Part shown: positions 43,663 to 57,815 of the stretch, in pieces
Position numbering within the stretch: position 1 is the first letter of the stretch
How the letters are laid out: every line of letters starts with the position of its first letter
Assembly: GCA_016235065.1 (NCBI GenBank)
Contig: JACRMB010000003.1
Location: forward strand, 469,943-533,942
DNA from: Actinomycetota bacterium
Lineage (GTDB): Bacteria; Actinomycetota; Thermoleophilia; BMS3ABIN01
Length of the DNA: 64,000 bases
Direction: 5' to 3'
Made by a program: the position numbers and the translations under genes
Notes under the pieces: generated by a model
Seen by the model: the letters and a program-made list of their open reading frames with translations, nothing else
Told to the model about the DNA's origin: nothing
The model's database searches: none

Positions 43663-44178
43663 CTAAGGAAGTATTTCCGGAGCCGCAGTTGTGAAGGTCG
43701 AGGACATATCGCGTTCCAGGCCGATGGCAGATTCTACCTTGATCTCCACGGAGATGGTGCTGCCGGGCCGGGCGTCGACCTGAGCCGTGAAATCATTGCC
43801 ATCGACGCCGCGTTCGTGCAATCTCTGTTCTCCGTTCACAAATACAACCGCGTCATTGATTGAGGAGAATCTGTTCACACGTATATGGATCTGTCCGTCT
43901 ACACTGATTCCTGTAGCGCCGGAACCGGAAGTGATTGAAGCGGTGGGTACGCAGATCATGAGACAGGCAGCCTCCAGGACAACTACGGAAACAAGCATAC
44001 CAGCGAATCTGAGGACTCGCAGATCCCGCTGGCGGAGAATCAGGAGAATAGCATCAAGGATGAAAGCGATGTCATGTCGGAGACGAGAAGACACAGTGCG
44101 CGTCCGCCTCCTGTTGTAATCGCCGGGGCAGGCAGATTCGCCTGAGATATTCATATCAGTGTTCGCGTGGCTATTCAT
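43663..44178 (-). CDS. Single-pass membrane protein, short paralog of the 49632-50705 gene
   Basis: 171 residues: ~55 cytoplasmic residues, one membrane helix (about 57-77), then a ~90-residue external domain. This domain aligns with the N-terminal domain of the 357-residue surface protein: both share a VPT-SI segment, a valine-rich strand (VVFVNG / VAVYAD) and an IGL-R-SSTFTT segment. The protein ends just after that match, so it is a one-domain version. Its promoter is a perfect sigma-54 site at 44478-44492, with a long 5' leader holding a hairpin. Confidence 0.7.
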   Translation of the reverse strand: MNSHANTDMNISGESACPGDYNRRRTRTVSSRLRHDIAFILDAILLILRQRDLRVLRFAGMLVSVVVLEAACLMICVPTASITSGSGATGISVDGQIHIRVNRFSSINDAVVFVNGEQRLHERGVDGNDFTAQVDARPGSTISVEIKVESAIGLERDMSSTFTTAAPEILP

Positions 44179-44477: not shown

Positions 44478-44492
44478 GCAAGAAGCGTGCCA
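44478..44492 (-). promoter_or_regulatory. Sigma-54 promoter A
   Basis: On the minus strand TGGCACG-CTTC-TTGC, an exact match to the -24/-12 consensus TGGCACG-N4-TTGC. Expected transcription start is near 44466, giving a ~290-nt leader for the gene at 44178. Confidence 0.85.
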
Positions 44493-44654
44493 AAGGTGCC
44501 GATTGGCGGGTGAACGGTTTTTCGATTTGGGGAAAGAAGGTGGTTATTCAGATTTTGCAGGAAGTTTACTGCAGCACTCTCGAGTCTGGGAGAAAGCGCG
44601 AGGAGCTTATTGGTTGATCTGACGAAACAGCGCTTTAGTTTATGACGTGGTCGG

Positions 44655-44670
44655 TGTGGCATATACCGCG
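44655..44670 (-). promoter_or_regulatory. Candidate enhancer (UAS) A
   Basis: Minus-strand CGCGGTATATGCCACA. It shares the half-site ATGCCACA with two other sites, at 47106 and 51098. It lies ~177 bp upstream of promoter A, a normal distance for an NtrC-type activator site. Confidence 0.55.
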
Positions 44671-44678
44671 AAAAGGTA

Positions 44679-44716
44679 CCGGGGGCGCCATGGAATGGCG
44701 CCCCCGGGGTTTTCTT
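44679..44716. terminator. 13-bp perfect hairpin with T-tract
   Basis: CCGGGGGCGCCAT / ATGGCGCCCCCGG with a GGA loop, followed on the plus strand by GGTTTTCTTC. It separates the 3' end of the gene at 44832 from the promoter region of the gene at 44178, and probably stops the minus-strand transcript ~115 bp after its stop codon. Confidence 0.6.
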
Positions 44717-44831
44717 CTATATTTGCTTCTGTATTTCTTACATCTATCTTTGGCACTGACTGTTATTCTTCGTCATCGGGATATGCCCCGCTCAGTCAGT
44801 ACGATTCTCACCTTATGTCAGGCTTCTCACC

Positions 44832-46295
44832 TTAGACCGGATATGTGTAGGAAGTCCCACAGACATCCGCAGCGCTGCCGGTAATACTTACCCTGAAGCT
44901 ACCCACACCTACTGGTATGTTGTACCTGGCCGTGACGTCCATGGTGGCGCCAGCGTTCAGGTCACCGACGGCAAGAGGCATCGCAGTGTTCAGGATAACG
45001 CCATTGGTGTTTGTGCTTCCGGTCATCGCAGTTGCGAAGGCCGTAGTGGCGCCGTTGTTGCTGAACCGCAGAGTAACTGTCAGATCACGAGCGGTGTAGT
45101 CGGCATAACTTGCCCAGTGAGATGACTGGATGCTGACTCCTACGCCTGGCTTACTGCTGACGCAGAGAGTGCCGGTTCCCATACCCAGATTGCCTGTGCC
45201 GTCGCTCACCATTACCTCGATGACGTGCGAACCGGCAGAGAGGCCGGCTGGAGTCGGGCAACTGATGCCGGTTGCGGTGGCGGTGCAACCCATCATGATC
45301 ATTGCTCCATCAACATGGACCATCGCGGTGCCAGCGTTGATGCCGCTGGTCAGGTTCGTGGACAGTGCACCTGTTGGCGCGGGATCTGAGTAAGAAGCCG
45401 TGATGGTAGTCTGATCGGCAGTGATCCCACTGACGAACGGATCAACATCATCGACGACCGTGTAGTGCTTCAGAGTCGCGAGATTCGAATAATCACTGCT
45501 GGTGTTCCCCACCTTGTCCTTGAGAAGGATGGACAGGGTGTTGTCACCGAGATGCAATAACTTCGCCCTGTTCACCTGGCAGGAATAGTGGGTCGGATCG
45601 GTAGCCGAAGGTGATTTGACGCACGATGTATTCGAGATCATGGCCCCCGCAACCCCTGGCGGGACGCTCTCATTCACATGGCTCATCGGAGACCAGCCGC
45701 TTGAAGGGGCCGGATCGGTCAGATCGTAGTCGATGCGAAGAGCGCTCGGGTCGTTCGTGCTTATGCTGTTGAGCTGAGACGTCAGGATAGTGCTGCCGTC
45801 GGCGGGCGAGAGGTTCGAATAGGTCGGAGCCGCGTTATCCACTACTACGGTGACCCAGGTGCGATGCATCGTCGGGTTGCCGGCCAGATCGTCAACATAG
45901 ATATCTATTGGGTGCGTGCCTGGAGTCAGGTCGGCCGCAGTCGCGGTACACTCGACGTGAGTCGCTGTCTGGACCGGGCAGTTCATCAGCATGTTGCTTA
46001 CATCGAGGTGGACCATGACGCTGGCCACGTCGACGCCGCTGCCACCGGTCTCGTCACTGTAATCGGCTTTGATCACCAACGGAGTCGTATTCCCCAGCTG
46101 ATAATAGATCGTCGAGCTGCCGTTGGTGAAGATGGTGCTTCCATCAACGGGAACCACATTGGTGACCACCGGTGCTGTCGTATCCGGATCCGCAGGATAC
46201 GCGGCCACGGCGATGGAGCTTGCCCCAATGGCGAAGATCGCCGCCAGGAAGGCCAGTATAAGAAGATATTTCATCGGTTTATAACGCGCTTGCAT
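44832..46295 (-). CDS. Secreted Ig-like repeat surface protein, 487 residues
   Basis: Start at 46295 with AGGAGG upstream (the frame extends further but without a ribosome site). Signal/anchor helix at about 8-28, then ~450 extracellular residues. Ig-like modules begin at DTTAPVVTNVVPVDGST, VDNAAPTYSNLSPADGST and VDDVDPFVSGI, each with a VMVHLD/AMVHVDG-type strand and isolated Cys pairs. The C-terminal ~100 residues form a beta-rich domain (VSIQSSHWASYADYTARDLTVTLRFSN) ending CGTSYTYPV. No sortase motif or enzymatic site. Second gene of a unit led by the DUF4418 gene. Confidence 0.8.
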   Translation of the reverse strand: MQARYKPMKYLLILAFLAAIFAIGASSIAVAAYPADPDTTAPVVTNVVPVDGSTIFTNGSSTIYYQLGNTTPLVIKADYSDETGGSGVDVASVMVHLDVSNMLMNCPVQTATHVECTATAADLTPGTHPIDIYVDDLAGNPTMHRTWVTVVVDNAAPTYSNLSPADGSTILTSQLNSISTNDPSALRIDYDLTDPAPSSGWSPMSHVNESVPPGVAGAMISNTSCVKSPSATDPTHYSCQVNRAKLLHLGDNTLSILLKDKVGNTSSDYSNLATLKHYTVVDDVDPFVSGITADQTTITASYSDPAPTGALSTNLTSGINAGTAMVHVDGAMIMMGCTATATGISCPTPAGLSAGSHVIEVMVSDGTGNLGMGTGTLCVSSKPGVGVSIQSSHWASYADYTARDLTVTLRFSNNGATTAFATAMTGSTNTNGVILNTAMPLAVGDLNAGATMDVTARYNIPVGVGSFRVSITGSAADVCGTSYTYPV

Positions 46296-46379
46296 GATAT
46301 GGTCTTTCCTCCTTCTCAAGTTCATCCTGTTCGTTGACAAGAGCTTGCTGCTTTGGTCCGGGTCAAGCCTTAATCTTTT

Positions 46380-46421
46380 ACTGCAGTCACTTCGCTTCGG
46401 ACTGCAGTCACTTCGCTTCGG
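46380..46421. repeat. Perfect 21-bp tandem duplication
   Basis: ACTGCAGTCACTTCGCTTCGG occurs twice back to back (46380-46400, 46401-46421). The second copy includes the stop codon of the DUF4418 gene and its last codons; the first lies just after the stop. Exact identity indicates a recent event. Confidence 0.9.
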
Positions 46422-46869
46422 CGGCGTTTTCAGTTGGCGATTCTGGAGCCGAAGAAGATGAGATGCCAAGCCATACGGCTGTCATCATGGCGATGATGCC
46501 CAGTACGATCAGCGAGGGCTTCGCGCCTTTGTTACAGTGCATGTCAGCGTTATGGCAGACAGGGAAGAGCCAGGTCGGTACGAGTATCGCCGCGGCTCCG
46601 GCGCCGGCCAGCACTAATGCCAGCGGTCGCAGAGTCGCGAGGCGGCTGGCGATGATGATGGCGATGCCGATGACGGCGATGATGATGCCGATAAGGAGCG
46701 AAGCCCTATCGGTGTAGTAGCAAGACATGGGCACGGTTTTGCCCATTCCCATGTCCATGCGGACCCCGTAGTATTCACATACGGGGAAGATGTACCGTGG
46801 CGTGATGGCGACGAGTGCTCCCAGGGCGATGACGCCAGCGCCTGCTATGGTCCTTGTGGTGCTGTTCAT
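46408..46869 (-). CDS. DUF4418 membrane protein
   Basis: 153 residues with four membrane helices. Paired external loops contain cysteines: FPVCEYY...MSCYYTDRA and FPVCHNADMHCNKGAKPS, the duplicated PVC-x-C pattern of DUF4418. This family is often encoded with MacB/FtsX-type ABC exporters, and one lies 5 kb upstream. It leads a two-gene unit with the 487-residue surface protein and is preceded by sigma-54 promoter B and an AAGGAGGGA ribosome site. Confidence 0.8.
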   Translation of the reverse strand: MNSTTRTIAGAGVIALGALVAITPRYIFPVCEYYGVRMDMGMGKTVPMSCYYTDRASLLIGIIIAVIGIAIIIASRLATLRPLALVLAGAGAAAILVPTWLFPVCHNADMHCNKGAKPSLIVLGIIAMMTAVWLGISSSSAPESPTENAAEAK

Positions 46870-46933
46870 TGATTCTGATTCCCTCCTTCCGACTTTTCAT
46901 GGTTTGCTGGATGCTGGTTTTATGTAATACGAA

Positions 46934-46948
46934 GCAAGTTTTATGCCA
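46934..46948 (-). promoter_or_regulatory. Sigma-54 promoter B
   Basis: On the minus strand TGGCATAAAACTTGC: invariant GG and GC correctly spaced by 10 bp, one change (C to T) in the -24 element. The flanks (TTGGCA, CTTGCTTC) match promoter C. Predicted start near 46922, ~53 nt before the DUF4418 ATG. Confidence 0.85.
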
Positions 46949-47105
46949 AGTAAACTGTATATTTACATAAAGAGAAAATATGTGTATATGCAGGTCTTTT
47001 GAGTGGCGGTTGGGCCATCATGCTGCCGCCGCGATCGATTCCAGTAAGCGGCAGCGTACGGGTGTGGTCAAATCCTGCAAATGTAATAGGATTTGGCACA
47101 ACAGG

Positions 47106-47121
47106 TGTGGGAAATGCCACA
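47106..47121. promoter_or_regulatory. Candidate enhancer (UAS) B
   Basis: TGTGGGAAATGCCACA, a TGTGG-N6-CCACA perfect inverted repeat, 172 bp upstream of promoter B. A weaker copy (TGTGGTCAAATCCTGC, 47063-47078) lies 43 bp away, four helical turns, as expected for paired activator dimers. Confidence 0.6.
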
Positions 47122-47145
47122 GTTAAAGCCGTAGCTCACCAGGCG

Positions 47146-49626
47146 TCAGTTCGATGATTCAGCGGCGACGATGCCCTCGCCGAAGAGACATCCGGTGCAG
47201 GAGACCTCCACCTTTTTGCCGGGTGCCTGATTCAGGCTGATGGACCGGGCGCCATGTCTCGGGATGCTGAAATATTCGTTATCCGGTTGATCCGGGTCGC
47301 GAAGCAGTTCGTCACCGATCCTGATTTCTACCTGTAGATCCCGTTCGTTGCCATTGCCGATACGAAGGCTGTCTGGCTGGTGGCTGCCGGCGCTTTCCGG
47401 ATTGTCGAAAATGATTCTGTCGCTGATGCGGGAAAGGCCGGTGGCCAGGATCTCAGAGAACGAATCCCCATTGACCTCCTGGAGCTCGGCCAGAAGCGGC
47501 TGGTTGTTGGTGGATACTATTCGGACCGGTCCGCCGCTGGTATCCGATAGCGTTGTTCTGGCTGCCGAATCCGGCTTGATGGAGTACTGCCCCTTGAGGG
47601 ATTCAGGTTGATCGGGATCGCCCACATAGACGTCGACGGCTGCTTCCTCCGTGCCGGCGTTGGCGATCACCAGGGAGGAGCTTCCTTCGCCAGCAGATCG
47701 GGTCTCATACCAGGGCAGCAGCAGTATGGATTCCAGGTCGGTCTCAGCAATCGCCGGTGTCTCGCTTGCTGAGCTGCCGGGTCCTGTGACGCGATGGATC
47801 ACCTCGAGCGGCTGGCCAGAAGGAGAGATTATCTTCAGCGGGCCGCCGGTCGTATCAGGCATCTGGATGGTCTCGCTTCCATTTTCCTCAATCTTCCCCT
47901 GCCATTTGACCTCGCCGCCGAGCAGTACGTTGACTATCGCTCCGCCGGCGCCCTGGTTCCTGATCACGAGCTCATCCCTGAATGGACCAGCGGTCTGCCC
48001 AGAATCGTACCAGGGGAGATAATAGGTGCTGGGAAAACTGACAAAACCAGAGATAATCCAGTTGCCTCCGGCTCCTGACATCGAACTGTAGCTCTGCCAG
48101 TACTCCAGCGTGGTCAATTCCCCGGTGACCAGTGGTGTTGCCGGCGGCCGCGAGGGCGTTGCAGGTTGAGGGACGCTGAAGCCCCAGGCGGACACCTGCT
48201 GGTTACCAGCCATGTCCCTGACTGCCAGCTGAACACTGTGCGGACCGGGGGTGAGACTCTCGGGTGGTGTATAGGAAACCAGGTTGCCGGTCATGGCGGC
48301 TGAGCCAGTGGCGTTTATGCCATCAACGACCAGGTTAAGTGATTCCGGATCGATGCCGCTACCGCCCTCGACAAGCTCCGCGGAAATCATCGGCAGGGCG
48401 ATAGTCGCCCCCGAAGGGGTCTCGTTCTCGATCAGCGGCGCGATGGTGTCGATGGTGAAGTTCCATTCACTTCTGCCCGTGTGCCCGGCGTCATCGATCA
48501 GGGTGACCAGCACCGTATGAGGTCCTTCGGCCAGCTGCGATGGCGGCCGGTAGACGATGCCGTCCGGTGAACATTCGGCATCGGCACTGACATCCGTACC
48601 GTCGAGCATCACCGTTATGGATGAGCTGTCGATGATGCCTGAACCGGCCTGCTGGAAGGTTGCCTGTATCGCCGGCGATGCTGAGGTCTGCCAGCTTCCT
48701 GCATCCGGTACCTGGCCGCTCACGGCGATAGCCGCCGTATCGACTGTGAAGCTCCAGATCTTCGTCGCCCGGTTGCCCAGGACATCCGAGACCTCGACCT
48801 GGACTTCATGCACTCCCTCGGCAAGTGGACCGGAAGCGCAGCTGATGCCGGCCACAGAGGCGGTACAGGCTGAACCCAGGCTGGCCCCGTCGAGGGACAC
48901 GCTGGCTGTGGCCGGATCGATCCCGGTTCCATCCAGGAAAGAGGCGGTGATCGCGACGCTGGCAGAATTGACTGTGCCTGTAGGCTGGGCGCTCGAAATA
49001 ACCGGCGCCGTCGCGTCGACGGTGATGTTCCAGGTTGCGACAGTACAGTTGTAATTGTTGTCGCAGATGAAGGCTTCCAGCTTGTGAGAGCCGTCGGTCA
49101 GCCCGGTTTTATAAAGGGTGATATCCGTGCCAGTTATTATTGTGCCGAACTGGTGCCGGTTATCGATGTGGATCATTGCCGTGCTCGGCTTGATGCCGAC
49201 TGATGGCTCGGGGTCACTGTAGCTGGCGCTGATCGTCAGCGCAGAGCCGGTGACGGCGCCGTTTGCCGGAGAATGCGAAGTTATAACCGGCGGCGTGGTG
49301 TCCGCCATGGTGAAGAGCTGGGCGGAAGCGAAGGCGGCTGGCGCCGTGTCGGAGATCTGCGGCAGCCTGCTCACTATCTCAGGACTCGCGTCAGCAGAGG
49401 CCGGGACCGTTGTATCCGTGTCCGGCTGGGGTGATTCACTCCCGGGATAGACTGAAGACGCCGCGTTGTCGCTGGAAACGGCGGAAACTCCTGAAGTGCC
49501 GCCAGCGTCAGTATCGACCGTGTTCGCGAAAAGAGCAGGCGGAGCGATCGTGGTCAGTAAAGACAGGGCCACGAGCAGGGCCAGGGGTGCAGAAAGGAAA
49601 TTGCGGCGTTTACGAGACATCTTCAT
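47146..49626 (-). CDS. Large secreted surface protein with Ig-like and LPWY-type repeats
   Basis: 826 residues. An N-terminal signal peptide (about 10-35) is followed by a ~75-residue Ser/Thr/Pro-rich linker. Four Ig-like repeats (about 108-480) each start with a D-T/A-xAP-type strand and end in a VDT/VDA linker. Three repeats of another domain follow, opening at YYLPWYDSGQ, LLLPWYETRSA and IIFDNPESAG, each with an LVIRNQG/LVIANAG/LRIGNG strand and the first two with a GGPxxIxS segment. The last repeat ends CTGC. No enzymatic motif. It follows the 357-residue gene by 5 bp; expression from promoter C is expected. Confidence 0.82.
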   Translation of the reverse strand: MKMSRKRRNFLSAPLALLVALSLLTTIAPPALFANTVDTDAGGTSGVSAVSSDNAASSVYPGSESPQPDTDTTVPASADASPEIVSRLPQISDTAPAAFASAQLFTMADTTPPVITSHSPANGAVTGSALTISASYSDPEPSVGIKPSTAMIHIDNRHQFGTIITGTDITLYKTGLTDGSHKLEAFICDNNYNCTVATWNITVDATAPVISSAQPTGTVNSASVAITASFLDGTGIDPATASVSLDGASLGSACTASVAGISCASGPLAEGVHEVQVEVSDVLGNRATKIWSFTVDTAAIAVSGQVPDAGSWQTSASPAIQATFQQAGSGIIDSSSITVMLDGTDVSADAECSPDGIVYRPPSQLAEGPHTVLVTLIDDAGHTGRSEWNFTIDTIAPLIENETPSGATIALPMISAELVEGGSGIDPESLNLVVDGINATGSAAMTGNLVSYTPPESLTPGPHSVQLAVRDMAGNQQVSAWGFSVPQPATPSRPPATPLVTGELTTLEYWQSYSSMSGAGGNWIISGFVSFPSTYYLPWYDSGQTAGPFRDELVIRNQGAGGAIVNVLLGGEVKWQGKIEENGSETIQMPDTTGGPLKIISPSGQPLEVIHRVTGPGSSASETPAIAETDLESILLLPWYETRSAGEGSSSLVIANAGTEEAAVDVYVGDPDQPESLKGQYSIKPDSAARTTLSDTSGGPVRIVSTNNQPLLAELQEVNGDSFSEILATGLSRISDRIIFDNPESAGSHQPDSLRIGNGNERDLQVEIRIGDELLRDPDQPDNEYFSIPRHGARSISLNQAPGKKVEVSCTGCLFGEGIVAAESSN

Positions 49627-49631
49627 CTCTC

Positions 49632-50705
49632 TTATTGCGGTGGCCAGGGGCAGCAGGCAGGCCAGCCCGGAGGTGGCCCGGATCCGCCCGCGGCTCCGCC
49701 GGAATCTGAACCTGAGCCGGATGATCCGCCGGTGGTATAGACGTATCCCCGGTAACCGGAGCTGCCAGTCGAAGAAGTAGCGGATGGATCAGAGCGGAAG
49801 CTGACTGTCATGGATAGCGGCGATTCGAGGAAGCTGCCATCCTCGCCTTCGGCGCTGCCCAGCTTGATCGTGTAATCGCTTGCAGCGTCGAGGCTGGCGC
49901 AGGTGATGACGATCTTCTGCTTCTCGACAGCTATTTCCGGATCGGGAAGGGTTGTCTCCAGGGACGCCCTGACCGCCTCCGGATTTGCGAAAGCCGTGGT
50001 GGAATCGAGTTCTATGCGCGTCTGTCCGTCAACCGTGCCCACACTTCCGTAAAGGGAGATGGGCCGCACTACGGTCGCGCGGACTTCCCTGGATTCCAGC
50101 GTCGCTGAGTCGGCTGCGGTGGCCACGATCTTAAGCAGATGAGTGGCGCCCTGCCTGAACGAGACCGTTGGCGGCAGTGTAGCTTTGGTCGGGTCGTCGG
50201 GATCGATCTCCAGGTCGATGGCGTCACTGCCGTCGAGAGATACAGCAGCCTGGTTCAAAGGTTTATTGAAAGCGAAAGTCAGTGTCGGCTGTGGGGGGAT
50301 CATCTGGCCTGGCTTGAGGCTGGCGCCGTTGACCGAGATATCGGCAACCAGTACTGGTTCCACGGTTGTGAAGGTCGAGGAAAATTCCCGCGTGAGCCCG
50401 ATCGGAGAAGAGATCTTTGCTTCGATTCGCACGCTCTGGCCAGGTTTCAGATCAAAATCACGGCTGAGATCGCCGGTGCCGAGGTTGTATTCCAGGGCCA
50501 GCGGCTCGTCATCGGCGTAAACGGCTACTTTACCGATTGAAGCGAGCGGCGAGGAATCGATTGAAACCGGCTGGCCGAGGGCAACGGCCGCCTGGCTGTC
50601 ATCTGGAACGATGGAAACGGTAGGGACTGCCAGCCAGACGCAGACAAGCAGCGCCACGGAAGCGGCGCCGGAAATAAAAATCACTTTTATACTTTTGTTC
50701 TTCAT
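49632..50705 (-). CDS. Membrane-anchored beta-rich surface protein, 357 residues
   Basis: N-terminal signal/anchor helix (about 8-30), then an Ig-like domain shared with the 171-residue protein at 43663, then two more beta-rich domains (a Big-Ig/SbsA-type module at PQPTLTFAFNKPLNQAAVSLDG and a further VRPISLYGSVG module). The tail is Gly/Ser-rich and ends GPPPGWPACCPWPPQ. First gene of the unit with the 826-residue protein. Transcribed from sigma-54 promoter C with a ~170-nt leader carrying two hairpins. Likely part of the same surface structure. Confidence 0.78.
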   Translation of the reverse strand: MKNKSIKVIFISGAASVALLVCVWLAVPTVSIVPDDSQAAVALGQPVSIDSSPLASIGKVAVYADDEPLALEYNLGTGDLSRDFDLKPGQSVRIEAKISSPIGLTREFSSTFTTVEPVLVADISVNGASLKPGQMIPPQPTLTFAFNKPLNQAAVSLDGSDAIDLEIDPDDPTKATLPPTVSFRQGATHLLKIVATAADSATLESREVRATVVRPISLYGSVGTVDGQTRIELDSTTAFANPEAVRASLETTLPDPEIAVEKQKIVITCASLDAASDYTIKLGSAEGEDGSFLESPLSMTVSFRSDPSATSSTGSSGYRGYVYTTGGSSGSGSDSGGAAGGSGPPPGWPACCPWPPQ

Positions 50706-50719
50706 GTCCTGGGGTCATG

Positions 50720-50758
50720 TTTTCCCGACGAGGTCCCCCAGTGACCCCGTCGGGAAAA
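50720..50758 (-). other. Long hairpin just upstream of the start codon
   Basis: TTTTCCCGACG / CGTCGGGAAAA with further inner pairs (GGTC/GACC) gives about 16 bp and a short loop, ending ~15 nt before the ATG at 50705. A second hairpin (GCCCCGG...CCGGGGC) lies at 50795-50816. Together they could gate translation or stabilise the mRNA. Confidence 0.7.
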
Positions 50759-50886
50759 TTTACTCATAAGAAACTGGGGCTCTCATAATGTCGCGCCCCG
50801 GTTCACCGGCCGGGGCTAAAAACAGCAAAAAACAGTACCCAGACCGAAATGAAGGGAACTGAATGGCTTGCTTGCCTCTATAGGAA

Positions 50887-50901
50887 GCAAGCATCGTGCC
50901 A
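50887..50901 (-). promoter_or_regulatory. Sigma-54 promoter C
   Basis: On the minus strand TGGCACGATGCTTGC, an exact TGGCACG-N4-TTGC match, in the context ATTGGCACGATGCTTGCTTC. Predicted start near 50875, ~170 nt before the gene at 50705. Confidence 0.88.
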
Positions 50902-51097
50902 ATATGGCTACTATCTGGGCATGTGGGAGCCATGCAAAATCATAGATTCGTTAAACAGCCTGCAAATCAAGCTATCGTGAGTATCGAAATGGCTCCAGGA
51001 TCAGCGCAGAGGGACATGAAGAGACGGACAGGCAAAGAAACTGCTGAGACTGGGGGGCAAGTTATGCGGTATCGAATGAGCCTTCTGCTACCCTCTG

Positions 51098-51113
51098 TGT
51101 GGCATATGGCACA
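51098..51113. promoter_or_regulatory. Candidate enhancer (UAS) C
   Basis: TGTGGCATATGGCACA; minus strand TGTGCCATATGCCACA. It shares ATGCCACA with sites A and B, 211 bp upstream of promoter C. The TGTG-N8-CACA spacing also resembles Crp-type operators, so a Crp/Fnr protein is an alternative binder. Confidence 0.55.
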
Positions 51114-51129: not shown

Positions 51130-51522
51130 CTACTCGTCGAGATTGACGCTGAGGTCGTAAGGGGAGAGATTGTCCACAAGGGCGTTGATGAAGCTGATTC
51201 GCACAAGGCCTTCGGCTTCTGACTTGTTGTAATACCAGATGATATTCGGATTATTGGTGGGGCCGGTGCGATGACTGCGGTCTGGCTGGCCCAGCAGTCC
51301 TTCGACCTGGTCCAGGGTCATGCCCTTCTGGACCTGCTCATACTGGCTCTGGCTGATGCCGGCCTCGGAGCCACATCCAGTGACTATTACCAGCAGGACG
51401 GCCATGATCAGAAGCGCCAGTACCGTTATCACGAGGCCTGCGGCCCGCAGACCGCGTCTGCCTGGGGCTGCCGCATTAATGCCTCTGGGATGGAGTGGCG
51501 TCATTTTACCTCTTTCCGTCAT
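51130..51522 (-). CDS. SmpA/OmlA (BamE)-like lipoprotein
   Basis: 130 residues: basic N-terminus, hydrophobic helix, lipobox VTGC near residue 50, then a small domain with QYEQVQKGMTLDQVEGLLGQPDRS, the BamE/SmpA_OmlA core pattern. In diderms such proteins assist outer-membrane assembly; stand-alone relatives also occur in monoderm lineages with unknown role. Its ATG overlaps the stop of the ABC ATPase, so it belongs to that exporter operon. Confidence 0.8.
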   Translation of the reverse strand: MTERGKMTPLHPRGINAAAPGRRGLRAAGLVITVLALLIMAVLLVIVTGCGSEAGISQSQYEQVQKGMTLDQVEGLLGQPDRSHRTGPTNNPNIIWYYNKSEAEGLVRISFINALVDNLSPYDLSVNLDE

Positions 51523-52202
51523 TCCGTCTCCTCTGAGAGCAGGCCGCGATGCATGCGAAGCATCCGCTGCGCCTGCGAGGCTACCGCACGGGAGTGGGTG
51601 ACTATTACGATTGTGACGCCCTCGCCGTTGATCTTCCTGAAGATATCAAGGATATCCGCCTCGGTATCTTCATCAAGGTCGCCGGTAGGTTCATCAGCCA
51701 GGATCAGCTTCGGCTTGTTCATCAGGGTCCTGGCCAGCGCAACGCGCCGCTGCTCGCCGCCGGAAAGCTGGCCGGGGTATGAATAGGTCCTGTCTTCCAG
51801 GCCGACCAGTCTCAGCAGCTCTATGGCGCGCTCGTGGTTGAGTTCCTTGCTGCTGCCGAATGTCGAAGGCAGCCTGACGTTGTCGAGTGCGTTTAGAGTC
51901 GGGAAGAGGCTGGCGAACTGGAAGGAAAAGCCTATCTTCTCGTTCCGGAGCTGCGACATCTCCTTATCCGAGAGGGTCCAGATGTTGACGTCGTCGATTA
52001 TCACGCGGCCGTCACTGGGCTTGGTCAGTCCACCTATGAGGCTGAGCAGCGTGGTCTTGCCGGAACCCGAGTGACCGACGATGGAGACCATCTGCCCCCG
52101 GGGGATCTCGAGGTCGACCTTTTCCACGGCCTTCACAGTGCTTGGCCCGACCTTGTAAGTCTTGCTTATGTCCTTAAGGACAATCATGGAGTCATCGGGC
52201 AT
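51519..52202 (-). CDS. LolD/MacB-type ABC transporter ATPase
   Basis: 227 residues. Walker A GHSGSGKTT near 43-51, Q-loop FQF, signature LSGGEQRR and Walker B LILADEPTGDLD, with the GDLDEDTEADIL segment typical of the MacB/LolD mechanotransmission family. It pairs with the FtsX-like permease 6 bp upstream. Such pairs extract lipoproteins or export peptides and drugs. Confidence 0.92.
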   Translation of the reverse strand: MPDDSMIVLKDISKTYKVGPSTVKAVEKVDLEIPRGQMVSIVGHSGSGKTTLLSLIGGLTKPSDGRVIIDDVNIWTLSDKEMSQLRNEKIGFSFQFASLFPTLNALDNVRLPSTFGSSKELNHERAIELLRLVGLEDRTYSYPGQLSGGEQRRVALARTLMNKPKLILADEPTGDLDEDTEADILDIFRKINGEGVTIVIVTHSRAVASQAQRMLRMHRGLLSEETE

Positions 52203-52208
52203 TCGCTG

Positions 52209-53411
52209 TCACTCTCCCTGCCTGATGGCGGCGTAAGGCTCCAGCCTGCTGGAGCTGAGCGCCGGGTATAGCGACGCCACGGCGCCGCTGATTATCGCCA
52301 GGAACATGGTGATGATCATGAGTTTGACGAAGGTGAGGATCGGCGGCCACAGATAGGGGATGCCAAGGCTCGAGGTGATGACAGCCTTGAAGATGAACAG
52401 GGCGGCGCCACCGACGAAGATGCCGGCGATCCCTCCGGCGGCGGTCAGGAATACCGCTTCGGTGAGCATGAGGCGGAAGACGAACTGTTTGCTGGAGCCC
52501 ATGGCCCTAAGTAGACCGATCTCCCGCTGGCGCTCATTGACGATCATGGAAAAGATCGCGGCAATGGTCAGAAGTGACATGATCCAGACAATGGCATCTA
52601 CTGCGATGAAGCCCCGTTTGAAGCCGGAGATGCGGTCAGTCACAGAACGGCTGAGTTCGTTGGCGGTGATGACCGTGGTCCCGGGGACGCTGGATTTGAT
52701 CCGCTGCGTGAGCTGGTCGACGTTTGTGCCTTCCGACATCTTGACCAGGACCGATGATATCTGGCCGGGTTTGACGTCTAGTGGCGATTCGGCCACTGAA
52801 GCGGATTCCTGTGCCATCACGTAAGCGGTATCCAGGCTCATGAAGACGCTTTCATCCACGCCCATGCCGGTTGCGTCAAGGACGCCGGCGACGTCGAAAT
52901 CATGACCGTAGAAATGCACCTGCTCGCCCTTGTTGGCGAGGATGAGCGAACCGATTACGACCTCATCCTTGCCCAGGGTTCGCTGCAGGTTGTCCTGCAG
53001 CCAGGGGCTGACGACGAAATCGCTGCCGGGGTCGTAGCCGACCAGCTGCACGTGGCCGGTACAACACTGGGAGGAAACCATGGATTCGATGAAGAGCTGC
53101 GGCGAAGCCTGATCGACTCCGGGAACATTCTTGACCTGGTCGAGGATGCCACCGTCCATATAGAAGCTCGTTGGCGCGCCGGTGATGAGCGCCGCTTGTC
53201 CCGATTCCTGATATCCCTCGGGAACGACCAGCAGGTCGGCGCCGAGACGCTCCATTCCTACTTCCAGACTGCGGTCAACGCTGCCGATCAGCAGGGTCGC
53301 GGAGAACAGGGTGCCCGCAGCCAGACCCACGATGGCTATGGTTACAAAGCTCCGGAACGGCTTACGCCTGAGGTTCTGAGCGGCCAGATAGAGGAGTCCG
53401 AGTCTTTTCAT
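52209..53411 (-). CDS. FtsX/MacB-like ABC permease
   Basis: 400 residues with the MacB layout: one N-terminal membrane helix (about 20-42), a large external domain (about 45-265) and three C-terminal helices with the FtsX core (ERQREIGLLRAMGSSKQFVFRLMLTEAVFLTAAGGIAGIFVGG). The external domain contains a CC pair. It forms an exporter with the next gene. Operon: permease, ATPase, SmpA-like lipoprotein. Confidence 0.92.
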   Translation of the reverse strand: MKRLGLLYLAAQNLRRKPFRSFVTIAIVGLAAGTLFSATLLIGSVDRSLEVGMERLGADLLVVPEGYQESGQAALITGAPTSFYMDGGILDQVKNVPGVDQASPQLFIESMVSSQCCTGHVQLVGYDPGSDFVVSPWLQDNLQRTLGKDEVVIGSLILANKGEQVHFYGHDFDVAGVLDATGMGVDESVFMSLDTAYVMAQESASVAESPLDVKPGQISSVLVKMSEGTNVDQLTQRIKSSVPGTTVITANELSRSVTDRISGFKRGFIAVDAIVWIMSLLTIAAIFSMIVNERQREIGLLRAMGSSKQFVFRLMLTEAVFLTAAGGIAGIFVGGAALFIFKAVITSSLGIPYLWPPILTFVKLMIITMFLAIISGAVASLYPALSSSRLEPYAAIRQGE

Positions 53412-53543: not shown

Positions 53544-54887
53544 TCACGAGCCAAGCCCGTACTTCTCGATGCGGTAGAGCAGCGTGTGCCGGCTGATGCC
53601 CAGCAGTTCGGCCGCCTTTGTGCGGTTGCCGCCGGTGCGCTCCAGGGCCTGGGCGATCAGCTCGCGTTCAACCTTTTCCAGGGCGACGCCCTCGGCCGGA
53701 AGATTGATAGTCTCGCTGGAGAGTGAAGCGCCTTTCCTGATCTCGGCGGGCAGGTCGTCGGGGCCGATGACCTTGCCGCGGCTCAGGATAGTCGCCCGCT
53801 CGATCGCGTTTTGAAGTTCGCGGACATTACCCGGCCAGTAATAATCTTCCAATAGCCGCATGCCTTCTGCAGAAAGCTCCTTGTCGTTGGAGAAACGGCT
53901 GAGAAAATGCTGGGCCAGCAACTTGATGTCACCACGCCGCTCCCGCAGTGGCGGCAGGTTTATGGGGATAACGTTCAGGCGGTAAAAAAGGTCCTCGCGG
54001 AATTCGCCATCCTTGATCATGGCGGGCAGGTCGCGGTTCGTGGCGCCGATGAGCCGGACGTCGACGTTGATGGTCTTTGAACTTCCCAGCCGTTCGAAAC
54101 TCATCTGCTCGAGTACGCGGAGCAGTTTGACCTGGACCGTCAGGGAGATGTCCCCGATCTCGTCGAGGAACAGGGTGCCGGTATCGGCCAGTTCGAACCG
54201 CCCCGGCTTCGAGTCGTTGGCGCCCGTGAATGCGCCCTTCTCGTAACCGAAGAGTTCACTTTCAAGGAGCGTTTCCGGCAGCGCGGCGCAGCTCAACTGG
54301 ATAAAAGGCTTGCCGTTGCGGTCGCTGTGTTCGTGGAGCGCCCTGGCTCTAAGCTCCTTGCCGGTGCCGCTCTCGCCGTAGACCATCACGTTGGCGTCTG
54401 AGGCCGCCACGCGCGAGACCGTGTCGAGGACATCCTTCATCGCCTGGCTGTCGCCGACGATACCGGAGGTATCGTAGCCGCGGTTGAGTTCGCCGCGAAG
54501 GAAATCAACCTGCTGGACCAGGCTGCCGACTTTCAGCGCCTTGGCTACGGTCAATTTAAGCTCCTCCACGTCGAAGGGCTTGGTCAGGTATTCGGTTGCG
54601 CCGGCTTTCATCGCCTGTACGGCGCTTTCCACATTGCCATGGGCCGTCAGCATGATGACCGGAAGATCCGGATACTCACTCTTGATCTCGCTGAGGGTTG
54701 CCAGTCCGCCCATGCCGGGCATGCGCTGGTCGAGGATCACCAGGTCAGGGACGGCCTCATCGAACGCCTTGAGAGCGTCTTCGCCGGAGGCGGCCTCGTG
54801 CACATCATGGCCTGCCCCTGAAAGGGCGCGGGCTACAACGAAACGCATGTTCTTCTCGTCGTCGACGACCAGTATGTTAGTGGACAT
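53544..54887 (-). CDS. NtrC-family sigma-54-dependent response regulator
   Basis: 447 residues. The receiver domain has Asp9/Asp10, phosphoacceptor Asp53 and Lys103. The AAA+ domain has Walker A GESGTGKE at 171-178, the sigma-54-contacting GAFTGA at 218-223, Walker B LFLDEIGD near 239-246 and the LRERRGDI sensor region. The Fis-type helix-turn-helix is at about 405-447 (NRTKAAELLGISRHTLLYRIEKYGL). All parts needed to activate RpoN are present. The start overlaps the end of the kinase gene by 11 bp. Likely binder of the TGTG-N8-CACA sites. Confidence 0.95.
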   Translation of the reverse strand: MSTNILVVDDEKNMRFVVARALSGAGHDVHEAASGEDALKAFDEAVPDLVILDQRMPGMGGLATLSEIKSEYPDLPVIMLTAHGNVESAVQAMKAGATEYLTKPFDVEELKLTVAKALKVGSLVQQVDFLRGELNRGYDTSGIVGDSQAMKDVLDTVSRVAASDANVMVYGESGTGKELRARALHEHSDRNGKPFIQLSCAALPETLLESELFGYEKGAFTGANDSKPGRFELADTGTLFLDEIGDISLTVQVKLLRVLEQMSFERLGSSKTINVDVRLIGATNRDLPAMIKDGEFREDLFYRLNVIPINLPPLRERRGDIKLLAQHFLSRFSNDKELSAEGMRLLEDYYWPGNVRELQNAIERATILSRGKVIGPDDLPAEIRKGASLSSETINLPAEGVALEKVERELIAQALERTGGNRTKAAELLGISRHTLLYRIEKYGLGS

Positions 54888-56436
54888 CGATATCTTCCTC
54901 CATCGTTTCCAGGATGTTCTCCTCCACAGTCTTGGGCGCCAGTGCCATTTTCTCGTCGACGTCGTTCGTTCGTTTATGGGCCAGCGGCAGACCTACGGTG
55001 AAAGTGCTGCCGGCTCCAGGTTCGCTCTCCGCTGTAATATATCCGTTATGGGCGTCGACTATGCGATGCACGATCGACAGGCCGAGGCCGCTTCCCTCGG
55101 CGCGGGTCGTATGGAAAGGATCAAAGATGCGCTCCTTCTCCGCCGGTGAGATGCCTATGCCGGTGTCCGTGAAGGCGATCCGCAGGTAACCCTCGCGGGT
55201 AGCTGCCGTGATCGTCAGTTTACCGCCGTCGGGCATCGCCTGGATAGCATTTGAGATCAGGTTGACGATTATCTGCTTGAGCCTGTCCTCGTCAGCCCAG
55301 ATATCGGGCAGCCCTTCCGGACTCTCTTCGAGCACTGTGACATCCTGCTGCTTGGCGAACTGCTTGGTCAGAAGGACTACTTCTCCGAGCACCCGGTGGG
55401 CATCCACCGGCCCAAACTGTGACTGAGAAGGTCTACCGAAGTCAAGGAGCGCGTTCACGACCGAGTCGAGGCGGTCGATCTCCTGGGCCATCACGTGCGT
55501 GAGTTCAGCATCCTGACAACCCTGATCCATCTCCTGTTCAAGCATCTGGACGCTAGCCTTGATCACGCCAAGTGGATTGCGGACTTCGTGGGCGACTCCA
55601 GCCACCAGTTCACCAAGTCCTGAGAGCTTGTCGGCTCGAAGGAGCTGTTCGGTGAGATCCTTGACTTCGGTTAGGTCTTCAAGGGTTATGACGATGCCGA
55701 CGGTCTGGCCCCGGCTGCGGTGAGGTGTTATTCGTACAGCCACAGGGATCGGCCTGCCTTCCGACTCAAGCTCGGTCTCCATCGTGGCCCGTGTCTGCTC
55801 GCCTGCCAGCACCAGCTCGGCGGCTCGATTCAGTTCTTCGTGTTTTTCAAAGATTCTGGCCAGAGGGAAGGCTACCAGGTCTTCTTCATGGCGTGTGAGG
55901 ATCTTGCGGGCTTCAGGATTGACGGTGACTATTATCCCGCGCCGGTCGCAGGAGATGACCCCGCTGCTGACGCTGTTGAGGATACTCTCCGTGTAAGCCT
56001 TCATGTGGCGGATGTCGGTCTCACGGTCTTCGATCTCCCGGTTGAGCTTCACGACTTCCTCGTAACGCTGGGCCTGGCGGCGCTTTGCTTCTACGACGGC
56101 GCCCATGATAAGGGCAACCATGTTGTAGAGCAGGACGTCAAAGAAGTTCTCAAGCGCCGCGCTCTCGAACAGGCCGCCCATGGACATGATCGCATGGGGG
56201 ATGAAGAGCGCCGAGACTGACAGTGAAGCCAGAAGGCCGCCCTTGATGCCGAAACGGTAGGCGGCAAAGAGGATGGGGATGTAATACAGGCGCCGCAGCA
56301 GGATGTGGAAGTTCTCATGGGAGATGAACTCGAGATGCAGCGGGTAATAATGGAAGTATGTGATGACTACGATGGCCACAGCGACCAGCACCGCGTCGCG
56401 TATCTGTGACCAGGGTTTGGCTTCAGTATCGCTCAT
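54877..56436 (-). CDS. NtrB-type sensor histidine kinase
   Basis: 519 residues from the ATG that overlaps the rpoN stop (ATGA). Four to five N-terminal membrane helices (to about 115) resemble DUF4118-type sensors. A coiled coil and PAS domain (about 145-255; ILNSVSSGVISCDRRGIIVTVNPEA) follow, then HisKA with His283 in AGVAHEVRNPLG and an HATPase domain (NLISNAIQAMPDGG; DTGIGISPAEKERIFDPFHTT; GSGLGLSI). The C-terminal ~35 residues are charged. It is the cognate kinase of the next gene; the signal is unknown but sensed in or at the membrane. Confidence 0.94.
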   Translation of the reverse strand: MSDTEAKPWSQIRDAVLVAVAIVVITYFHYYPLHLEFISHENFHILLRRLYYIPILFAAYRFGIKGGLLASLSVSALFIPHAIMSMGGLFESAALENFFDVLLYNMVALIMGAVVEAKRRQAQRYEEVVKLNREIEDRETDIRHMKAYTESILNSVSSGVISCDRRGIIVTVNPEARKILTRHEEDLVAFPLARIFEKHEELNRAAELVLAGEQTRATMETELESEGRPIPVAVRITPHRSRGQTVGIVITLEDLTEVKDLTEQLLRADKLSGLGELVAGVAHEVRNPLGVIKASVQMLEQEMDQGCQDAELTHVMAQEIDRLDSVVNALLDFGRPSQSQFGPVDAHRVLGEVVLLTKQFAKQQDVTVLEESPEGLPDIWADEDRLKQIIVNLISNAIQAMPDGGKLTITAATREGYLRIAFTDTGIGISPAEKERIFDPFHTTRAEGSGLGLSIVHRIVDAHNGYITAESEPGAGSTFTVGLPLAHKRTNDVDEKMALAPKTVEENILETMEEDIDVH

Positions 56437-57815
56437 TTGGCCTTCTTGCGCTCCCACGATGCCGGTATCCCCAGGGCTTCGCGGTACTTGGCAACCGTGC
56501 GCCGGGAGATGTCGAGACCGACTTCATGCAGCTTGTCAACCAGCTTCTGGTCTGAAAGCGGGTGGCCTGGATCTTCAGAGTCGATCATCCCCTTCATCCG
56601 CTTCTTTACCGCCGTCGCCGAAAGCCCTTCTCCACAGGAAGTGGCATACCCCGCAGAAAAGAAATAGCGGAACTCGAATATGCCGTACGGGGTGCTCATG
56701 TATTTGCCGAGGATGGCACGGCTTACTGTCGAGGGATGCACCTCGAGCCGGGAAGCTATCTCTTCAAGACCGAGCGGCCGCAGATGTTCCGGCCCCAGGA
56801 TGAAGAAATCCGGCTGGGATTCAGTGATGGCACGGGCAACCTTGGTGACGGTGGTTCGCCGGTGGTCTATATCACGGATAAGCCGTGATGCATCCTGGAT
56901 CTTTTCCTTGACGTACTGGGCCGTCGCCTTGTCGGCGGCGCTGCTGCCGGCTTCAGCCATCTCCTTGTAAAGGCGGCTAAGCCTGAGCGAAGGCAGGATC
57001 TCCCTGTTGGCCAGCACCCGCACCCGGCCGCTACGGTCTGGGCGGGCATAGATGTCCGGGATGATTATGGAAGCCGGCGGGCTGGTATCGAATAGTGAGC
57101 CGGGCGAGGGACAGAGGCTGCGGATCAGTTTGACTGCATGACGGACCCTGGCAGTGGAGACTGACAGGGTCCGGGCGATTTCAGCGTAAGCGCCGCTTGC
57201 CACCTGGGGCAGGAAATCCCGCGCGACGCGGACAGCGGTGTCGCCAGATTCCATCTGCTCCAGCTGATTTGCGAGGCATTCGGCGAGGTTGCGGGCGGCT
57301 ACGCCCGGCGGGTCGAAATGCTGGACGAGGGTGAGCACTTCCTCTATCTCGCTCACAGGCCTGGCGATGGTCTCGGCCAGATCCGCCAGCGGCTCGCGAA
57401 GGTAGCCGTCTTCGTCGAGGCTGCCGATGATGGCCAGTCCGATCCGCCGCTGCCTGTCGTCGAAACTCTCCAGTTCCAGCTGCATGGTCAGATGCTCAGT
57501 AAGGGTGACCGGGCTGGCGGTGAGTTCTCCGGCTGCGGTAGCTTCACCACTACCGGAGTAGCTGCCACCCTCGCTCCGGTGTGTCCCGAGGTAGTCGTCC
57601 CATAATTCCCGCTCGGCTGCGTTGCCGTGCTCCTGGTCCATCTCGGATGGCTCCGGTATCTCCAGAGTCGGGTTCTCGACCAGCTCCTTTTGGATCAGCG
57701 CCTGGAGTTCCTGGGCGCCGAGGCGCAGGATGCTCAGGCTCTGGTAGAGCCTCGGTGAGAGCACCAGTTGCTGGCTTACCGACGGGGATGTCTTCAGGGC
57801 TGGTTTGAGTTCCAT
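56433..57815 (-). CDS. rpoN: RNA polymerase sigma-54 factor
   Basis: 460 residues, all three regions. Region I: Gln-rich activator-interacting helix (SQQLVLSPRLYQSLSILRLGAQELQALIQKELVENPTLE). Region II is acidic and variable. Core-binding region: DEDGYLREPLADLAE and FDPPGVAARNLAECL. C-terminus: HTH RLEVHPSTVSRAILGKYMSTPYGIFEFRYFFS and RpoN box SRRTVAKYRE at about 437-446. Intact. It is directly upstream of, and overlapping, its kinase and activator genes, unlike the usual rpoN-hpf context. Sigma-54 is generally missing from Actinobacteria. Confidence 0.97.
   Translation of the reverse strand: MELKPALKTSPSVSQQLVLSPRLYQSLSILRLGAQELQALIQKELVENPTLEIPEPSEMDQEHGNAAERELWDDYLGTHRSEGGSYSGSGEATAAGELTASPVTLTEHLTMQLELESFDDRQRRIGLAIIGSLDEDGYLREPLADLAETIARPVSEIEEVLTLVQHFDPPGVAARNLAECLANQLEQMESGDTAVRVARDFLPQVASGAYAEIARTLSVSTARVRHAVKLIRSLCPSPGSLFDTSPPASIIIPDIYARPDRSGRVRVLANREILPSLRLSRLYKEMAEAGSSAADKATAQYVKEKIQDASRLIRDIDHRRTTVTKVARAITESQPDFFILGPEHLRPLGLEEIASRLEVHPSTVSRAILGKYMSTPYGIFEFRYFFSAGYATSCGEGLSATAVKKRMKGMIDSEDPGHPLSDQKLVDKLHEVGLDISRRTVAKYREALGIPASWERKKAK

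Follow-up and report, generated by a model that had tools for sequence, protein, structure and literature searches.

Does a genome of the Actinomycetota use sigma-54, and are three sequences resembling -24/-12 promoters, found close together on one strand of its DNA, part of such a system? The question arises from a window of 64,000 nucleotides (the whole stretch of DNA analysed here) that belongs to a genome of the class Thermoleophilia. Surveys of the past have it that Actinobacteria lack or 'generally lack' sigma-54 (PMC3162934, PMC3372290); Francke et al. (2011), who describe sigma-54 as the controller of the bacterial exterior, likewise list Actinobacteria as being without a sigma-54 system (PMC3162934). 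A 2025 survey of sigma-54 regulons states that Actinomycetota 'effectively lacks a functional RpoN', with the proposal that high genomic GC keeps sigma-54 from finding its promoters (PMC12316311). No paper on sigma-54 in Thermoleophilia was found in the open-access literature.

The three boxes and their chance expectation

A preliminary description of the window had reported three minus-strand sequences at 44478, 46934 and 50887 (boxes A, B and C in Table 1), two of them exact matches to an 11-position -24/-12 pattern. The coordinates are correct, the exact boxes are those at 44478 and 50887, and the box at 46934 agrees in 9 of 11 positions; the flanks said to be common to B and C (TTGGCA and CTTGCTTC) are found in both. 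The arrangement looked for in a sigma-54 promoter, GG-N10-GC in a TGGCAC-N5-TTGC context, is present. The chance figure of 0.03 exact matches given in that description presupposes equal base frequencies; under a first-order Markov model of the window the mean rises to 0.1, and the simulations (n = 60) produced at most 2 exact matches. When up to 2 mismatches are allowed, matches in the window do not exceed expectation (18 found vs 22.4 expected), so that the boxes alone are suggestive, not conclusive, and the evidence consists of their exactness, position and conservation. Genome-wide statements in this work are pattern searches of the 2.37-Mb genome, in which the exact box occurs 4 times and the reversed pattern 0 times; the 19 genomes of the window's family contain 43 exact boxes in all, many of them in the neighbourhood of rpoN or activator genes, vs 16 matches to the reversed pattern.

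Each box was also said to lie 5' of the first gene of a unit, which is correct for B and C. Box A, placed directly after a strong terminator-like hairpin (44679-44707), is 314 bp upstream of a 171-aa ORF, gA1, but this unit is missing at the junction in three relatives. In those genomes both site A and gA1 are absent, and the Ig gene (in G009 the DUF4418 gene) is directly followed by a gene of 145 aa; tblastn matches of gA1 in relatives are gC1 orthologs with 27-38% identity. Since unit A is absent from the junction in those relatives, A is lineage-specific and is supported by its sequence alone.

Table 1. Features on the minus strand discussed in the text, with positions in the window.
Feature	Position	Strand	Remarks
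rpoN (sigma-54)	56433..57815	-	TIGR02395 405.7 bits; single copy in genome
Sensor histidine kinase	54877..56457	-	membrane part, PAS, HisKA, HATPase
EBP1, NtrC/AtoC-type activator	53544..54887	-	receiver, AAA+ with GAFTGA, Fis-type HTH
MacB/LolC-type ABC permease	52209..53411	-	
LolD-type ABC ATPase	51519..52202	-	
BamE-domain lipoprotein-like protein	51130..51522	-	PF04355
Candidate UAS of C	51081..51113	-	TGTGCCATATGCCACA + half-site GTAGCAGAA; 1 mismatch to TGTGGCATWTGCCACA; 212 bp upstream of -24 box
Box C, -24/-12	50887..50901	-	TGGCACGATGCTTGC; exact, 11/11
Conserved leader element, start of transcript C	50791..50876	-	CCC-UUCnnAUCGGUCU-GGG hairpin inside helix P1, then hairpin P2; 69.5 bits (covariance model)
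Long hairpin just 5' of gC1 start codon	50720..50758	-	TTTTCCCGACGGGGTC..., read from sequence; similar in orthologous leaders
gC1, membrane-anchored tandem Ig-like protein	49632..50705	-	357 aa; first gene of unit C
gC2, secreted Ig-like (Big_13) protein	47146..49626	-	826 aa; second gene of unit C
Candidate UAS of B	47089..47121	-	TGTGGCATTTCCCACA + half-site GTGCCAAA; 1 mismatch; 173 bp upstream of -24 box
Box B, -24/-12	46934..46948	-	TGGCATAAAACTTGC; 9/11
DUF4418 membrane protein	46408..46869	-	153 aa; PF14387 E 9.5e-26; first gene of unit B
Secreted Ig-like protein	44832..46295	-	start ATG 46295; second gene of unit B
Intrinsic terminator-like hairpin	44679..44707	-	13 pairs, 11 GC; between unit B and UAS/box A
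Candidate UAS of A, degenerate	44637..44670	-	CGCGGTATATGCCACA; 3 mismatches; 178 bp upstream of -24 box
Box A, -24/-12	44478..44492	-	TGGCACGCTTCTTGC; exact, 11/11; lineage-specific, without ortholog
gA1, 171-aa ORF	43663..44178	-	partial paralog of the N-terminal half of gC1

Sigma factor, activator and candidate enhancers

The preliminary description saw the boxes but overlooked rpoN, an activator and enhancer sites in the same window, and these strengthen the case far beyond what three boxes can offer. The order of genes on the minus strand is ABC-2 permease, rpoN, kinase, EBP1, MacB/LolC permease, LolD ATPase, BamE-like gene, and then units C, B and A. The RpoN protein belongs to the RpoN family: its AID, CBD and DBD (PF00309, PF04963, PF04552) all score above the Pfam cut-offs, as does TIGR02395 above its own, and it carries the RpoN box in the variant form SRRTVAKYRE (the strict pattern ARRTVAKYRE goes unmatched because S replaces A). 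The criterion of the 2025 survey, AID + CBD + DBD (PMC12316311), is passed at all three Pfam cut-offs.

EBP1 has the receiver Asp, the exact GAFTGA and the Fis-type HTH of NtrC-type activators, with candidate dyad enhancers roughly 100-200 bp upstream of the target promoters, and together with the kinase it forms the probable cognate pair of RpoN. The system shares with AtoSC, ZraSR and NtrBC the kinase-activator pair, the receiver-AAA+(GAFTGA)-Fis HTH architecture, the upstream dyad, the -24/-12 element and sigma-54; unlike in those systems, the activator scores below the NCBIfam equivalog cut-offs for AtoC, NtrC and ZraR (531.6 vs 714, 471.9 vs 558.6 and 440.5 vs 760 bits), the pair adjoins rpoN itself, a DUF4418 protein is targeted along with Ig-like surface proteins, and the host belongs to the Actinomycetota. 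EBP1 would work like AtoC, NtrC and ZraR, and is not classed as one of them.

Alignment of the upstream regions revealed a palindrome, TGTGGCATWTGCCACA, followed about 21 bp further on by a half-site, GTGGCANAA. In the whole genome of 2.37 Mb the palindrome is found with at most 1 mismatch in two places only, one ahead of C and the other ahead of B. In 10 of the 11 relatives compared it stands 174-181 bp upstream of the -24 element of C or of a C-equivalent site (0-4 mismatches); at B the distance is more variable (150-192 bp). Dimers of NtrC-type activators bind one face of the DNA and loop to the promoter; the arrangement of palindrome, half-site and -24 element is the geometry expected for such looping dimers, and suggests that EBP1 may bind there.

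The genome encodes three strong sigma-54 activators, EBP1, EBP2 and EBP3. EBP2 was considered as the activator acting on the palindrome and rejected, as its box, near a TauE permease gene, is without TGTGGCATWTGCCACA. This box, TGGCACGGTTRTTGC, is strongly conserved in at least 6 genomes (L038:6858; G000 C2:20843), and has as neighbours the TauE/SafE permease gene and a universal-stress-type gene. At the EBP3 locus of this genome no box reached the required score.

Conservation among relatives and alternative explanations

According to the preliminary description, upstream regions of orthologous genes should keep the GG-N10-GC spacing if the boxes are promoters. When this was examined, GG-N10-GC was found at C in 9 of the 10 genomes that have gC1, and at B in 10 of the 13 that have the DUF4418 gene (fetched loci), where chance would give about 0.0026 of these sites in 450 bp. 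Conservation at the first gene of the unit is thereby established for C and B, A having no orthologs. The three genomes without box B are G007, G009 and G015. In the former two the DUF4418 gene sits close behind other module genes, with which it may be co-transcribed. In G015, EBP1 is missing and the sole activator is about 41% identical to it; LolC, LolD, BamE, gC1, gC2, DUF4418 and Ig genes are all retained, the upstream regions of the module contain neither box nor palindrome, and an ECF sigma gene is found upstream of the module (L119:2238-2849). Although limited to a single genome, this looks like a natural case of apparent regulatory rewiring, in a small regulon where one relative shows the activator and its DNA sites both lost and an ECF sigma gene as a new neighbour. 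A SurA-like PPIase gene is also present within the G015 module.

Could the boxes nevertheless be a product of chance, with transcription proceeding from ordinary sigma-70-type promoters? We consider this very improbable. The absence of enrichment at up to 2 mismatches would agree with it, as would the existence of weak sigma-70-like sites, one of which lies upstream of C (50966-50939); these sites, however, are near their shuffled expectation (9 vs 6.0), and chance is hard to reconcile with a box and an enhancer kept at fixed spacing in the otherwise diverged DNA of relatives, with a palindrome present at B and C only, and with the adjacency of rpoN and activator genes. It is somewhat easier to imagine, and still improbable, that the promoters are genuine sigma-54 promoters while the palindrome belongs to some other regulator, and EBP2 or EBP3 drives the units: EBP1 is assigned to the palindrome by co-occurrence in a genome with two other activators, and TGTGGCA/TGCCACA is similar to the generic dyads of other regulator families. 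Against this, pairs of palindrome and box track EBP1 in relatives, G015, with another activator and no EBP1, is without them at these genes, and in G012 a perfect palindrome and a box are situated directly behind EBP1.

Least credible of all, to the point of being nearly dismissible, is the idea that the rpoN island came in by contamination, or by foreign insertion only very recently, and does not work as a circuit of this actinobacterium. It draws on the reported general lack of rpoN in Actinomycetota (PMC3162934, PMC12316311), but the island is on a 712-kb contig, and 18 of the family's 19 genomes carry rpoN, their gene order and sites being kept while RpoN identities have fallen to 47-85%. 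None of the 41 other genomes sampled from the class has rpoN, and across the phylum an RpoN DBD above cut-off is found in 17 of 397 sampled genomes. G008, of the same family, encodes a sigma-54 activator (C13:67478) and has two exact boxes, and rpoN was not detected in it, which may reflect an assembly gap or a recent loss.

The reading of the boxes as sigma-54 promoters is supported, strongly so for B and C, which are very probably genuine promoters of one dedicated circuit; A is a probable one, recent and lineage-specific. All the parts of this circuit, the way they are spaced and conserved, and the fact that one relative has lost them together can be seen directly in the genomes. As to how it would operate, the membrane histidine kinase would perceive a signal and phosphorylate EBP1, whose dimers would bind some 175 bp upstream of the promoter, at the palindrome and at the half-site that lies two helical turns from it, and would oligomerise; the DNA would then loop, allowing the GAFTGA-bearing AAA+ domain to melt the sigma-54 closed complex at -24/-12. 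The expected output is a cell-surface programme consisting of membrane-anchored and secreted Ig-domain proteins, the DUF4418 membrane protein and also a lipoprotein and a redox protein with a Tat signal, both expressed from a divergent pair of promoters far away; the LolC/LolD/BamE-like genes, which come after rpoN, kinase and EBP1 on the same strand, probably serve to export or anchor the products. DNA binding by EBP1, transcription, the existence of a signal and the function of the products are all predictions from sequence.

As a mechanism this is canonical sigma-54 of the textbook kind; the novelty lies in meeting it in a phylum said to lack sigma-54, in the surface proteins that are its targets, in the apparent rewiring and possibly in a new leader RNA. 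The family of the window is a clear exception to the absence of RpoN from Actinomycetota. Because it has a complete sigma-54 circuit, with promoters and enhancers under visible selection, the conclusion of the 2025 survey is not valid phylum-wide, and the explanation based on GC content becomes testable.

A distal redox locus and a shared leader RNA

On contig C3 an exact box at 75893 opposes a near-exact box at 75582, and the two flank genes for a lipoprotein-like protein and for a Tat-signal redox protein with a C_GCAxxG_C_C motif and a C-terminal CxxCH (L039:8173-9123). The redox gene is followed by one encoding a 153-aa protein with a C-terminal domain common to the Ig protein of unit B, and then by genes that, judged from their first residues, resemble tatA and tatC. 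This locus is a candidate distal target of the circuit. In this genome its palindromes have 4 mismatches; better ones occur in G001 and in G005, where a palindrome with one mismatch lies between the two boxes. Exported or surface proteins are the common theme of the targets. Secreted, surface and membrane products, together with a Lol-like exporter, fit the description of sigma-54 as governing the bacterial exterior (PMC3162934).

Transcript C and the unlinked distal redox transcript have a leader element in common, in which a CCC-UUCnnAUCGGUCU-GGG hairpin inside a variable helix is followed by a GC-rich hairpin. Strong matches to its covariance model are confined to the family, with one weak match in another family (E 1.8e-4). 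Strong matches are present in 11 of 13 EBP1-bearing genomes and in 0 of 5 near-complete genomes without EBP1; a fragmentary genome (G014) has the leader with EBP1 undetected. Single-sequence folds agree, although their energy z-scores run from -0.7 to -4.4, and there is modest evidence from an arm-swap test of P1 (p about 0.01) and from covariation, where two pairs have changed in both partners, a result matched by 8 of 500 shuffles. RNAalifold recovers two hairpins only from the MAFFT alignment of the leaders, and misses P1 because its arms are unaligned. Searches of the leader and of the whole window matched no Rfam family; weak matches to mir-606 and tp2 were spurious and were not accepted. 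Like riboswitches and other cis-regulatory leaders, the element is a conserved, probably folded 5' leader common to two unlinked transcripts that belong to a single regulon; unlike known riboswitches, it has no Rfam family and its covariation is modest. It appears to be a real conserved element, of unproven structure and function. We would only tentatively propose, with some doubt, a new class of cis-regulatory RNA, 86 nt long and near the predicted sigma-54 start, with a conserved 13-nt loop (UUCnnAUCGGUCU) and a second hairpin; if this were true, the sigma-54 regulon of this actinobacterium, driven by enhancers, would have a further checkpoint after initiation.

Further along transcript C, the loop CUGGGG of the hairpin at 50720-50758 is complementary to CCCCAG directly before the gC1 start, with similar arrangements in G001, G004 and G005; a pseudoknot over the translation start would be possible. 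In a fold search, where TM-scores were low (about 0.33), gC1 showed Ig-like domains akin to those of mycobacterial L,D-transpeptidases; a catalytic domain was not recognised. The end of gC1 (49632-49680) encodes an invariant tail, GPPPGWPxCCPWPPQ/E, behind a variable Gly/Ser linker in orthologs down to 48% identity. Among 399 genomes of the class the tail was found in gC1 orthologs alone, 10 genomes having a single carrier each; it could possibly be a sorting, anchoring or metal site.
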